Shown: piece after piece, positions 2,779 through 64,000 of the stretch
Layout: every line of letters begins with the position of its first letter
Position numbering within the stretch: position 1 is the stretch's first letter
Source of the DNA: Kribbella flavida DSM 17836
GTDB taxonomy: Bacteria > Actinomycetota > Actinomycetes > Propionibacteriales > Kribbellaceae
Assembly (NCBI RefSeq): GCF_000024345.1
Contig: NC_013729.1
Span: 2,604,001 to 2,668,000, forward strand
DNA length: 64,000 nucleotides
Direction of reading: 5' to 3'
Position numbers and translations under genes: made by a program
The notes under the pieces: generated by a model
Told to the model about the DNA's origin: nothing
Database searches by the model: none
What the model saw: only the letters and a program-made list of their open reading frames with translations

Positions 2779-4176
2779 GTGACTAGTGCACCTGCTGACC
2801 TTCCCCGGAAGGCCGGCGAGCTTCGCGCCGCCGGTTACCTTCCCCGCACCATCAAGGCCGAGATCCGCGAGAACCTGCTGACCAAGCTCCGGGCCGGCGA
2901 CGACCCCTGGCCCGGCATCGTCGGGTTCTCCCGCACCGTGATCCCCCAGCTGGAGCGTGCCCTGCTCGCCGGGCACGACGTCGTGCTGCTCGGCGAGCGT
3001 GGCCAGGGCAAGACCCGCCTGCTGCGCACTCTGCTCGGGCTGCTCGACGAGTGGACCCCGGTGATCGAGGGCGCCGAGCTGCCCGAGCACCCGCTCGACC
3101 CGATCACGCCGGCCTCGCAGCGGCGCGCCGCCGAGCTCGGCGACGACCTGCCGGTCGCCTGGCTGCACCGCAGCCTCCGGTACGCCGAGAAGCTGGCCAC
3201 GCCGGACACCTCGGTCGGTGACCTGATCGGCGACGTGGACCCGGTCAAGGTGGCCGAGGGCCGCAGCCTCGGCGACCCGGAGACGATCCACTTCGGTCTG
3301 GTCCCGCGCGCGCACCGCGGCATCGTCGCGATCAACGAGCTGCCCGACCTGGCCGAGCGGATCCAGGTGGCGCTGCTGAACGTGATGGAGGAGCGCGACA
3401 TCCAGGTCCGCGGCTACACGCTCCGGCTGCCGCTCGACGTGTTGCTGGTGGCAACGGCCAACCCCGAGGACTACACCAACCGCGGCCGGATCATCACGCC
3501 GCTCAAGGACCGGTTCGGCGCCGAGGTGCGGACCCACTACCCGCTCGACGTGGACGCCGAGGTGGACGTGGTCCGGCAGGAGGCCGAGCTGACCGCCGAG
3601 GTCGGCGAGCCGCTGCTCGAGGTGCTGGCCCGGTTCGTCCGGCACCTGCGCGAGTCCACCGCGATCGACCAGCGCTCGGGCGTCTCCGCCCGGTTCGCGG
3701 TCGCGGCGGCGGAGACGGTCGCGGCGGCGGCCCTGCGGCGCAGTGCGATCACCGGCGAGCAGCCCGCGGTCGCCCGTCCGGTCGACCTGGAAGCGGTGCC
3801 GGCCGTGCTGCGCGGCAAGCTGGAGTTCGAGCCCGGCGAGGAGGGCCGCGAGACCGAGCTGCTGGAGTACCTGCTGCGCCGGTCGGTCGCCGACACCGCC
3901 CGCGAGCGGTTCGCCGGCCTGGACCTGACCCCGCTGGCGAACGCGGTGGCCGACGGGCATCTCGTCACCACCGGCGAGCGGATCCCCGGCCGGGACGTGC
4001 TGTCGGCGCTGCCCGAGCTGCCGGTGCTGCACGACGTGGCCGCGCGGGCGGGCGTCGAGGCGGACGACTCGCCGGGCCGGATCGCGGCCGCGGTCGAGCT
4101 CGCGCTGGAGGCGCTCTACCTGTCGAAACGACTGGCCAAGGACGCCGACGACGACACGACCGTCTACGGAGCCTGA
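2779..4176 (+). CDS. AAA+ ATPase, MoxR / magnesium-chelatase-like
   Basis: A 465-residue AAA+ ATPase. Walker A is GERGQGKT at about residues 72-79. A Walker-B-like strand GIVAINELPDL lies near 181-191, and a sensor-1 region with VATANPEDY follows. The sequence resembles Mg-chelatase/MoxR ATPases, which act as chaperones together with a von Willebrand factor A partner. That partner is encoded 43 bases downstream. GTG 2779 was chosen because TAACGT stands seven bases upstream (2766-2771), the leaderless pattern seen repeatedly in this window. A GTG at 2746 would add 11 residues. The client protein is unknown. Confidence 0.8.
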   Translation: MTSAPADLPRKAGELRAAGYLPRTIKAEIRENLLTKLRAGDDPWPGIVGFSRTVIPQLERALLAGHDVVLLGERGQGKTRLLRTLLGLLDEWTPVIEGAELPEHPLDPITPASQRRAAELGDDLPVAWLHRSLRYAEKLATPDTSVGDLIGDVDPVKVAEGRSLGDPETIHFGLVPRAHRGIVAINELPDLAERIQVALLNVMEERDIQVRGYTLRLPLDVLLVATANPEDYTNRGRIITPLKDRFGAEVRTHYPLDVDAEVDVVRQEAELTAEVGEPLLEVLARFVRHLRESTAIDQRSGVSARFAVAAAETVAAAALRRSAITGEQPAVARPVDLEAVPAVLRGKLEFEPGEEGRETELLEYLLRRSVADTARERFAGLDLTPLANAVADGHLVTTGERIPGRDVLSALPELPVLHDVAARAGVEADDSPGRIAAAVELALEALYLSKRLAKDADDDTTVYGA

Positions 4177-60221: not shown

Positions 60222-61067
60222 TCAGGCCACCAGCGTGTCGCCGCGAACGACCAGGACGACGACGCTGACCACGGCGACGGCGATGGTGAGCAGGAACGGC
60301 GCCCGGGACCAGGCGACGATCACGGCGAGCAGGACCGCGACGACGGCCAGCGCGATCCAGCCGGCCGCGCCGACCGGGCCCGGGGGAGCGACTGTCAGCA
60401 GGACGGTGGCGGCCGCGAGCGGAAGCGGGGCGAGCAGCCGCGCGGCCGGTCCGAGTCGTTGCGGCCAGCCCCGGACTCCGGTGGCCAGGTCGTCGGCCAG
60501 ATCCGGTACGACGTTCGCGAGGTGCGCGCCGACGCCGAGCAGGGCCGTCGCGGTCGTCGCCCACCACGGCGCCCAGCTCCCGACGGCGCCGAAGGTGACG
60601 AACGACGGCAGCGCGCCGAAGCCCACGGCGTACGGGAGCCAGGAGATCGGGGTCGACTTGAGACCCAGGTTGTACGCCCAGGCGCAGGCGACGAAGAGCA
60701 GGTGGGCCAGGCCGGCCGGGACGCCGTTGCCGAGCGACAGCGCGATGGTGGCGGCCAGCATGACCAGGGCGCCGGCCCACAACGTGCGACGACTCACCAA
60801 GCCCAGCACGACCGGCTTGTCCCGGCGGTTCACAATGGTGTCGCGGGCGGCATCAATCGCGTCATTGCTCCAGCCGATTGAGAGGTGGCCGGTGAGGATC
60901 GTTGCGGCGACGAAGAGACATCCGACGAGGCTGCGGCCCGCGGACCAGGCGATGACGGTGACCAGGGCGGTGACGGCGACGGTCGGGCCGGGGTGGCAGG
61001 CCAGCGCCAGCCCTTTGAGGGTGCGGCCGATCGAGCGCGCTGCGGGGTTCTGCGGGAGCCGGCTCAC
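60222..61067 (-). CDS. UbiA-family prenyltransferase
   Basis: A 281-residue integral membrane prenyltransferase with eight or nine hydrophobic helices. The first Asp-rich motif is in SIGWSNDAIDAARDTIVNRR (the NDxxDxxxD type). The second Asp-rich motif is NVVPDLADDLATG. These bind Mg and prenyl diphosphate. It would add a prenyl chain to an aromatic or other acceptor, most simply the product of the divergent type III PKS. GTG 61067 is chosen for fit to CATCGT plus seven bases on the minus strand; the longer open frame through the PKS gene is a shadow. Confidence 0.87.
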   Translation of the reverse strand: MSRLPQNPAARSIGRTLKGLALACHPGPTVAVTALVTVIAWSAGRSLVGCLFVAATILTGHLSIGWSNDAIDAARDTIVNRRDKPVVLGLVSRRTLWAGALVMLAATIALSLGNGVPAGLAHLLFVACAWAYNLGLKSTPISWLPYAVGFGALPSFVTFGAVGSWAPWWATTATALLGVGAHLANVVPDLADDLATGVRGWPQRLGPAARLLAPLPLAAATVLLTVAPPGPVGAAGWIALAVVAVLLAVIVAWSRAPFLLTIAVAVVSVVVLVVRGDTLVA

Positions 61068-61073
61068 CGAAGC

Positions 61074-61080
61074 AACGATG
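61074..61080. promoter_or_regulatory. Overlapping -10 boxes of two divergent leaderless genes
   Basis: AACGAT (61074-61079, plus strand) lies six bases before ATG 61086, and CATCGT (61080-61075, minus strand) lies seven bases before GTG 61067. The two boxes share five base pairs, so both promoters cannot be opened at once on one DNA molecule. Confidence 0.5.
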
Positions 61081-61085
61081 CCACG

Positions 61086-62129
61086 ATGACGCGGATCGCC
61101 GCGGTCCAGCCCGCGTTGCCGCCGTACCGGTACGCGCAGGCCGAGCTGACCGACGCCTTCGCCGAGCTCTGCCTGCCCGACGGCAAGGGGCACGCCCTGC
61201 TGCGCAGGCTGCACGCCAACGCCGGCGTCTCCCACCGCAACCTCGCCATCCCGCTGGAGCAGTACGCCGAACTCAAGGACTTCGGCGCCGCGAACGACGC
61301 CTGGATCGCGATGGCCGTCGACCTGGGCGCCGAGGCGATCGCCGGAGCGCTGGCGACGGCCGGGCTCGGGATCGAGGACGTCGACCTGCTGCTGTTCACC
61401 ACCGTGACCGGACTGGCGGCGCCGTCGATCGACGCCCGGGTGGCGACGCGGCTGGGGATGCGCGAGGACGTGAAGCGGCTGCCGCTGTTCGGGCTGGGGT
61501 GTGTCGGCGGCGCGGCGGGCATCGCGCGGCTGCACGACTACCTGACCGCCTGGCCGTCGCACGTGGCGGTGCTGCTGTCGGTGGAGCTCTGCTCGCTGAC
61601 GCTGCAGCGGGACGACTCCTCCCTGCCGAATCTCGTCGGCGGCGCCTTGTTCGGCGACGGCGCGGCGGCGGTGGTGATGACGGGTGCCGAGGTCGAGGGG
61701 ACCGGGCCGTCGGTGGTGGCGACCCGAAGTCGGCTGTACCCGGACTCCGAGCGGGTGATGGGCTGGGACGTCGGGGCGGGCGGCTTCCGGATCGTGCTCG
61801 GCGCCGACGTGCCGGAGGTGGTCCGCAAGTACCTCGGCGACGACGTCGCGGCGTTCCTGGCCGGGCACGAGCTGACCGTGCCGGAGATCGGGACGTGGGT
61901 CAGCCACCCCGGCGGGCCGAAGGTGCTCGAGGCGGTCTCGGAGACGCTGAAGCTCCGGCCCGGAGCGCTCGACCTGACCTGGAAATCGCTCGACGCCGTC
62001 GGCAACTTGTCGTCGTCGTCGGTGCTGCACGTGCTCGGTGACACCATGACCCTGGATCCTGCGGGTCCTGGGCTGCTGCTGGCGATGGGCCCGGGGTTCT
62101 GTTCCGAGCTCGTTCTGCTGGAGTGGTGA
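61086..62129 (+). CDS. Type III polyketide synthase (alkylresorcinol/alkylpyrone synthase-like)
   Basis: A 347-residue chalcone-synthase-fold enzyme. The triad is intact: Cys139 in LFGLGCVGGAAG, His274 in WVSHPGGPKV and Asn307 in AVGNLSSSSVL. It would extend a fatty acyl or other CoA starter with malonyl-CoA and cyclise it to a resorcinol, pyrone or quinone precursor. The sequence is closer to bacterial phenolic-lipid synthases (SrsA type) than to RppA, judged by the GLGCVGGAAG and HPGGPKVL contexts. It begins a three-gene operon with overlapping stops and starts (TGATG, GTGA). Confidence 0.93.
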   Translation: MTRIAAVQPALPPYRYAQAELTDAFAELCLPDGKGHALLRRLHANAGVSHRNLAIPLEQYAELKDFGAANDAWIAMAVDLGAEAIAGALATAGLGIEDVDLLLFTTVTGLAAPSIDARVATRLGMREDVKRLPLFGLGCVGGAAGIARLHDYLTAWPSHVAVLLSVELCSLTLQRDDSSLPNLVGGALFGDGAAAVVMTGAEVEGTGPSVVATRSRLYPDSERVMGWDVGAGGFRIVLGADVPEVVRKYLGDDVAAFLAGHELTVPEIGTWVSHPGGPKVLEAVSETLKLRPGALDLTWKSLDAVGNLSSSSVLHVLGDTMTLDPAGPGLLLAMGPGFCSELVLLEW

Positions 62130-62656
62130 TGGAAACGTCTTTGTGGTGGTACGTCGTCCTGGTGCTGCTGGTCGGCCTGGAGCGGGTGGCCGAGCTGGTG
62201 GTGTCGCTGCGCAACGCGAAGTGGAGCTTCGCGCAGGGCGGGGTGGAGTCCGGCAAGGGGCACTACCCGTTCATGGTCGTGCTGCACACCGGGTTGCTGG
62301 CGGGCTGTCTGGTCGAGGCGATCGTGGCGGACCGGCCGTTCGTGCCCGAGCTCGGCTGGACGATGCTGGCCGTCGTTGTGCTGGCTCAAGGCCTGCGGTG
62401 GTGGTGCATCACCGTGCTCGGGCGGCAGTGGAACACCCGGGTGATCGTGGTGCCAGGGCTGTCACTGGTTGCCGGTGGCCCTTACCGCTGGATCCGGCAC
62501 CCCAATTACGTGGCCGTGGTGCTGGAAGGCGTCGCGCTCCCGTTGGTGCACACGTCCTGGGTGACGGCGGTCGTCTTCACCGTGCTGAATCTCCCGCTGC
62601 TCGCGGTCCGCATCCGGGCTGAGGAAGCGGCGCTGGACACCGCGCTGACCAGGTGA
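62129..62656 (+). CDS. Isoprenylcysteine carboxyl methyltransferase-like protein (SrsB-like)
   Basis: A 175-residue membrane methyltransferase of the ICMT/NNMT-like family with four or five helices. The SAM-binding C-terminal motif is GGPYRWIRHPNYVAVVLEG, with WNTRVIVVPG before it. In Streptomyces phenolic-lipid clusters a homologue of this size (SrsB) O-methylates the alkylresorcinol. ATG 62129 overlaps the PKS stop. Methylation of the PKS product is the natural inference. Confidence 0.87.
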   Translation: METSLWWYVVLVLLVGLERVAELVVSLRNAKWSFAQGGVESGKGHYPFMVVLHTGLLAGCLVEAIVADRPFVPELGWTMLAVVVLAQGLRWWCITVLGRQWNTRVIVVPGLSLVAGGPYRWIRHPNYVAVVLEGVALPLVHTSWVTAVVFTVLNLPLLAVRIRAEEAALDTALTR

Positions 62657-63672
62657 TCGATCTGCTGGTGGCCGGTGCGGGTCCGGCCGGAGCGGCGACG
62701 GCCATCCGGGCGGCAATGGCCGGGCTGGACGTGGTCGTGGTCGAGCCGCGCGAGGCGCCGATCGACAAGGCGTGCGGGGAGGGGATCGCGCACAGCGCGG
62801 TGGAGTACCTGGCTCGGCTGGGCGTCGAGCTGACCGGTCGGCCCTTCTACGGGATCCGGTATCTCGACGGGTCGCGCTGCGTCGACGCCCGGTTTCGGGC
62901 CGGGCCGGGACTCGGCGTACGGCGTACTGAGCTGCAGCGGGGCTTGCACGATCGGCTGGCGGCCTTGGGAGTGCCGGTACTGCGGGAGCGGGTCGGCACG
63001 GTGCGGCAGTCAGCCGAGGCGGTGACAGCTGCGGGCATCACTGCTCGCTATCTGGCCGCAGCTGACGGGCTGCACTCGCCTGTACGGCGGCAGCTTGGGC
63101 TTGGGGCGACTGGCCGGCCGGGGGAGGTGCGGCGGGGGTTGCGGCAGCACTACGCGATCAAGCCGTGGACTGACCTGGTGGAGGTCTACTGGTCTTCACT
63201 GGGTGAGGCGTACGTGACGCCGGTGAGCTCGTCGACTGTCGGGGTCGCGGTGCTCACGGCTGAGCGTGGGTCGTTGGCGGCCCATCTGCAGGCCTTTCCG
63301 CGGTTGCAGGCGCGGCTGGAGGAAGCGTCGGCTGTGTCCGGCGTGCTGGGGGCGGGGCCGTTGCGGCAGCGCGTCCGGCGCCGGGTGGCCGGGCGGGTGC
63401 TGCTGGTGGGGGACTCAGCCGGGTATGTGGACGCGTTGACCGGCGAGGGAATCGCTGTGGCTCTGCGGACGTCAGCCGAACTGGTGCGGTGTGTGGCGGC
63501 GGATCGGCCGGAGGACTACGAGGCAGCCTGGCGGCGGGTGTCGCGGGAGTGCCGGCTGCTGACGGCTTCGTTGCTCTGGGCCCGCAACAGGTCGTTGCTC
63601 GCTCCCCGCATCGTGCCGGCGGCGGCGGCGCTGCCGGGGGTGTACGGGGCGATCGTGAACCGGCTCGCCTGA
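62653..63672 (+). CDS. FAD-dependent monooxygenase (SrsC / geranylgeranyl reductase-like)
   Basis: A 339-residue flavoprotein. The FAD Rossmann motif is LLVAGAGPAGAATAIRAAM. The second FAD motif is VLLVGDSAGYVDALTGEGIA, and the intermediate D-G signature is AADGLHSPVRRQLGL. It fits SrsC-type hydroxylases that turn methylated alkylresorcinols into quinols, and also the related geranylgeranyl-reductase group, which would suit the neighbouring prenyltransferase. GTG 62653 overlaps the methyltransferase stop codon. It is the last gene of the operon before a strong terminator. Confidence 0.88.
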   Translation: MIDLLVAGAGPAGAATAIRAAMAGLDVVVVEPREAPIDKACGEGIAHSAVEYLARLGVELTGRPFYGIRYLDGSRCVDARFRAGPGLGVRRTELQRGLHDRLAALGVPVLRERVGTVRQSAEAVTAAGITARYLAAADGLHSPVRRQLGLGATGRPGEVRRGLRQHYAIKPWTDLVEVYWSSLGEAYVTPVSSSTVGVAVLTAERGSLAAHLQAFPRLQARLEEASAVSGVLGAGPLRQRVRRRVAGRVLLVGDSAGYVDALTGEGIAVALRTSAELVRCVAADRPEDYEAAWRRVSRECRLLTASLLWARNRSLLAPRIVPAAAALPGVYGAIVNRLA

Positions 63673-63739
63673 GCGGCGGGCTTCGATCGGCGGCGTTGGT
63701 CAGGCCTTGATCGGGCGGCTGCGGGGAGGAGATGCGCGA

Positions 63740-63773
63740 GGGCCCGGCGATCGCTCAGACAATCGCCGGGCCC
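63740..63773. terminator. Terminator hairpin after the phenolic-lipid operon
   Basis: GGGCCCGGCGAT (63740-63751) pairs perfectly with ATCGCCGGGCCC (63762-63773) around a ten-base loop. It stands 67 bases after the stop of the FAD gene. Confidence 0.75.
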
Positions 63774-63786
63774 CGCACGCCGCGGC

Positions 63787-63878
63787 CCGAGCTTCCTGGT
63801 GAAAAGCTCGGACCAAGCCGCCCCAGCCTCCTGGTGAAAGGCTGGGACGGTGCCCCAGCATCCTGGTGAAATGCTGGG
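63787..63878. ncRNA. Three tandem hairpins with identical loop, candidate structured RNA
   Basis: Three 25-base hairpins stand at 63787-63811, 63822-63846 and 63854-63878. Each has a perfect eight-base stem and the same nine-base loop CCTGGTGAA. The stems differ but stay paired: CCGAGCTT/AAGCTCGG, CCCAGCCT/AGGCTGGG and CCCAGCAT/ATGCTGGG. Compensated stems with a fixed loop indicate that RNA (or single-stranded DNA) structure and loop sequence are selected. On the opposite strand the loop reads TTCACCAGG. Orientation is not settled: it could be the tail of the upstream transcript or a leader of a leftward transcript beginning near 63955. Family unknown. Confidence 0.7.
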
Positions 63879-64000
63879 ACGATCCGGGGAGGAGAAGCTC
63901 GCCCCGCGGTGTTTCTGCGGTGCGCCTCGTTCCTTCTGATGAGTACTTTTCCATTCGGATGTTGCTCGTCGATTGCCGGAATGTGAAGCCTTGTTACTTC

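Follow-up and report, generated by a model that had tools for sequence, protein, structure and literature searches.

The three tandem hairpins at positions 63787-63878 of the window (the whole 64-kb stretch of Kribbella flavida DNA that was analysed, lying in a 7.58-Mb single-contig genome) very probably belong to a small regulatory RNA (sRNA) that stands alone and ends in an intrinsic terminator, and that would be transcribed from the minus strand by its own promoter, downstream of a gene for a PucR-type regulator. By sequence comparison, the unit is a previously unnamed family of predicted sRNAs, normally single-copy and genus-wide in Kribbella, a group of soil actinobacteria. The predicted sRNA is about 225 nt long here (63728..63952, minus strand), and 38 Kribbella genomes keep the same minus-strand order, in which a promoter-like TTCAYA-N17-CAACAT and a short 5' stretch precede two or three hairpins, with a GC-rich terminator hairpin at the end. 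This would add a well-supported, genus-wide sRNA family to a phylum with few characterised sRNAs.

A first-pass annotation of this DNA had described three perfect 8-bp stems around a single loop, and its coordinates, pairing, and spacing (loop starts 35 and 32 nt apart) are all borne out. Hairpin 1 spans 63784..63814 (8-bp core 63787-63811, arms 63787-63794 and 63804-63811), hairpin 2 spans 63818..63850 (core 63822-63846, arms 63822-63829 and 63839-63846), and hairpin 3, which is missing from a two-hairpin class of copies, spans 63852..63881 (core 63854-63878, arms 63854-63861 and 63871-63878). We place all three on the minus strand, where the RNA loop is UUCACCAGG and the helix of hairpin 1 extends via a U-G pair. 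The outer U-U/G-G of this loop are able to wobble-pair, which leaves CACCA at the apex. On the plus strand, the loop of all three reads CCTGGTGAA, a 9-mer that occurs three times in the window against an expected 0.32, each time within the array, and none of 100 shuffles reached three copies. The array region folds at -87.5 kcal/mol (z = -3.4 vs shuffles).

It had also been proposed that a fixed loop on changed but paired stems reflects selection on RNA structure, and the aligned copies (21 loci in the two-hairpin class, 15 in the three-hairpin class) support this. Among 87 hairpins compared, hardly any core stem is broken despite many changed base pairs, and the loop is identical in every intact hairpin, all nine positions being fixed. 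Across 33 distinct copies aligned over H2, H1, and the terminator-like hairpin H0, 96.7% of the stem cells in the alignment were paired vs 90.3% after shuffling; both-side changes filled 83 cells vs 19.8 in shuffles (for both measures, 0 of 500 shuffles were as high), and were found in 20 pairs vs 9.1. It is important to remember that kinship among the sequences inflates such covariation counts; a control that retains this kinship, in which the partners were slid by one base, lowers pairing to ~55%. The unit thus has the conserved, covarying structure that is looked for in an autonomous sRNA gene. A coding repeat was ruled out, as the loop spacing varies across copies from 32 to 38 nt and is not in multiples of 3. 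One natural loop mutant was seen: in Kribbella genome G009 (L216, ~3609-3735, minus strand), an insertion splits one loop, giving TTCA-GGAAATGCCGTA-CCAGG, and the other hairpin is intact.

The conserved sequence extends well past the hairpins. A DNA search of same-genus genomes returns two blocks, one that joins the hairpins to a GC-rich hairpin at 63740-63773 and one of 42 bp at 63956-63997. The span first proposed, 63787-63878, therefore contains real hairpins but is incomplete, with conservation running from ~63734 (the terminator hairpin) to beyond 64000 (the promoter block). The promoter-like element (63959..63987, minus strand) consists of a -35 TTCACA (63987-63982), a 17-nt spacer, and a -10 CAACAT (63964-63959). 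The pattern TTCA[CT]N-N17-CAA[CT][AG]T is present in 39/39 copies, the divergent G031 included, with a TTTACA variant in G003, and TTCAYA-N17-CAACAT occurs only once in the whole K. flavida genome. Between species, identity in this block is 92% vs 51% at 4-fold (silent) sites of the adjoining pucR. As a -10, CAACAT matches the sigma-70 consensus poorly, and a generic consensus scan called neither a promoter nor a terminator. Directly upstream of the -35, at window positions 63988-63997 on the minus strand, GTAACAAGGC is invariant at the pucR locus and replaced in G031; it is possibly a regulator site.

At the other end of the unit, the terminator-like GC-rich hairpin H0 (63734..63779, core 63740-63773, minus strand) is conserved in all copies and folds better on the minus strand in 36/36. 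After its stem, the minus strand has T in 83% of copies at two adjacent positions; runs of three or more T follow H0 in 20/36 copies on the minus strand vs 2/36 on the plus strand. In the K. flavida genome itself this U-tract is weak. From these landmarks we infer that the unit is transcribed, and place its start site and 5' end near 63952 and its 3' end near 63728. The idea of an RNA-structure array thus stands as far as a conserved RNA structure goes; the array itself, however, is the middle of a larger predicted sRNA gene, most likely on the opposite strand.

The absence of a named RNA family of this form, suspected from the outset, is supported: there are no Rfam matches at threshold. Scr4115 (RF02829) aligns weakly over its full length with the minus strand, at 29.5 bits vs a gathering score of 58 bits, a whole-genome search with it returned no hit, and the conserved Kribbella loops are absent from Scr4115. 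The 6C RNA (RF01066) has no match in 63400-64000 up to E=5 and none in the whole K. flavida genome at E<=0.001, in a search whose control matched weakly, in one genome. 6C RNAs carry runs of about six C in their hairpin loops. The Kribbella unit is like 6C and B11 RNA in being an actinobacterial sRNA with several stem-loops bearing like loops and a terminator-like hairpin; it differs from them in its gene neighbourhood and in a loop that is UUCACCAGG, not a C run, in all intact copies. CsrB-type RNAs titrate protein. A single loop motif borne by several hairpins whose stems differ recalls CsrB/RsmY/RsmZ, although the Kribbella motif does not follow the A-N-GGA consensus and only 2-3 sites are present. 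Similarly, the Listeria LhrC sRNAs have repeated identical seed motifs, with UCCC seeds; the Kribbella RNA shares the repetition, but its sequence and host are unrelated, and it has no UCCC seeds. ANTAR-target RNAs are tandem stem-loops in actinobacteria with two hexaloops carrying A1 and G4, and they act on their own mRNA (PMC8164766). The likeness to them lies in the tandem stem-loops of an actinobacterium, and the difference in a 9-nt loop (or CACCA) where a hexaloop would be expected, and in the stand-alone unit. Membership of the Scr4115, 6C, CsrB-type, and ANTAR-target groups was rejected. Literature searches for a report of a Kribbella sRNA found none.

Two or three copies of one loop on drifting but paired stems suggest that a conserved partner is contacted at several equivalent points. 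The sRNA would present UUCACCAGG, with CACCA at its apex, as a set of equal binding sites for a single conserved partner in trans, and the repeated loop probably grips a single partner molecule. We give slightly less than an even chance to the loops pairing with mRNAs, in which case they would recognise a small set bearing sites that resemble CCUGGUGAA, much as 6C and B11 act through their C-rich loops. In B11 RNA, these loops pair with mRNAs and the terminator loop is the working loop (PMC12395582). In Kribbella, by contrast, G031 and G022 do not conserve the loop of the terminator. At 1,032 gene starts that we predicted ourselves (1.26 Mb, about a sixth of the genome), loop complements were not enriched, and they showed no excess before ATG in the K. 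flavida genome (7 vs 9 in the control), so general anti-Shine-Dalgarno pairing at many starts finds no support. Candidate targets were rejected on two counts: CCTGGTGAA-pattern matches before ATG resemble coding DNA, with the 9-mer giving Leu-Val-Lys/Asn in frame, and of the ten gene-start sites that match CCTGGTG or more, most are GTG starts or overlap coding sequence.

Pairing with mRNAs is, in our judgement, slightly likelier than protein binding, which is a near-equal alternative. The identical loops could capture an RNA-binding protein, which the sRNA would then titrate much as CsrB/RsmZ do, a reading to which we assign a substantial minority share of the probability. In its favour, titration RNAs classically carry one loop repeated unchanged on stems that vary, as here in two or three copies, the loop is fixed at all nine positions, and the mRNA-site enrichment was not found; against this, 2-3 sites are few for a titrating RNA, a candidate protein is lacking, and CsrA/RsmA (PF02599) is absent from the genome, in a search whose controls matched in 3/14. 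That the sRNA titrates a protein reading UUCACCAGG hairpins specifically seems to us possible but rather doubtful; if true, Kribbella, without CsrA, would have its own protein-sequestration RNA system. The null results of the target and CsrA searches are compatible both with a few specific mRNA targets and with an RNA-binding protein. With its invariant loop and natural one-, two-, and three-hairpin versions, the family offers a test object for loop pairing vs protein binding in actinobacterial sRNAs.

The unit lies between two convergent genes. A FAD-dependent oxidoreductase (PF01494) occupies 62653..63672 on the plus strand and, in most Kribbella, ends just before H0; the gene for the PucR-type regulator has its stop at window position 64071, just past the edge. 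The array had earlier been considered as a possible leader of a gene beyond the window, which this arrangement contradicts, the next gene being convergent and the unit lying 3' of it. That same position raises the alternative that the unit is the 3' UTR of the pucR-like mRNA (a stability element plus terminator) and no separate gene, in keeping with a promoter-like block that begins 33-139 nt past the pucR stop, on the same strand, in 38/39 copies. We nevertheless consider this unlikely, given that the most conserved stretch is that very block with its fixed 17-nt spacing and that G031, the most divergent copy, retains the block with a same-strand ORF separating pucR from the unit. G031 also has a different terminator hairpin sequence, and keeps the promoter-like block, the spacing, and two loops despite its other flanking genes. 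On the oxidoreductase side, other sequence or genes intervene in G019, G001, G004, G037, and G031, each with an intact unit. Since the neighbours differ in these five genomes and the unit is kept, it would be neither a leader nor the 3' UTR of one neighbour, which favours the stand-alone sRNA. Within the window, ORFs for a type III polyketide synthase-like protein, an ICMT-family methyltransferase, and the FAD oxidoreductase stand in a row (60885-63672), which many Kribbella genomes keep together next to the sRNA.

A further reading places the function in plus-strand RNA, with the hairpins acting within the 3' part of the mRNA for the oxidoreductase and exposing the loop CCUGGUGAA. Its attraction is that in 11 hairpins of several lineages the plus strand has G-T in place of G-C at the fourth pair below the loop, where a mid-stem G-U pair can form; the minus strand then has A-C. 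Because these 11 mid-stem G-T cells on the plus strand equal A-C on the minus strand, wobble events alone are insufficient to fix the strand. The minus strand, however, folds better in 32/33 units, by a mean of 13.9 kcal/mol, the plus strand has no conserved promoter or terminator, and the oxidoreductase is separated from intact units in the five genomes named above. We therefore regard plus-strand function as quite improbable. Weighing fold and T-tract evidence against the one contrary G-T observation, the minus strand is much likelier to be the transcribed one.

Many copies with two to five hairpins had been named at the outset as what would support the idea, and the element is indeed found throughout the genus, in versions of only two or three hairpins. 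Our covariance model matches 38/38 Kribbella genomes, with one copy in each except G011, which has two. Among ~256 other genomes of the order, the same search gave no convincing copies; it gave four weak matches (per-genome E 0.006-0.09), and the two weak outside-genus matches that were inspected (G103 and G052) were both without the loop. The search of 394 other genomes of the class gave no match. A collection-wide scan for tandem loops returned at least 118 stretches, of which 80 loci were checked, and stable hairpin arrays were found only in Kribbella among the matches listed, counting with Kribbella the record named Streptomyces sp. SID13031 that is described below. A mobile or extragenic palindromic repeat of the REP/BIME kind, which tandem hairpins in a gap between convergent genes might bring to mind, can be dismissed as refuted by copy number, with a single locus in each genome, at a position shared throughout the genus, instead of many dispersed copies, and with stems that covary while the loop stays fixed.

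Some smaller observations concern individual records. The two copies in G011 (Kribbella jiaozuonensis) are identical, as are their surroundings, and lie on two contigs (L069 and L070) of an assembly with 7% contamination; the second may be assembly redundancy. Beyond the window, at ~6200-6800 of L007, the translated frames contain an array of about four near-identical tandem repeats (PHRASDAAGRADTNGTPAAQPTPTPPRARRGTPRR). Finally, a record named Streptomyces sp. SID13031 (L086/L064), which falls among Kribbella and has the element, is probably a misnamed genome.
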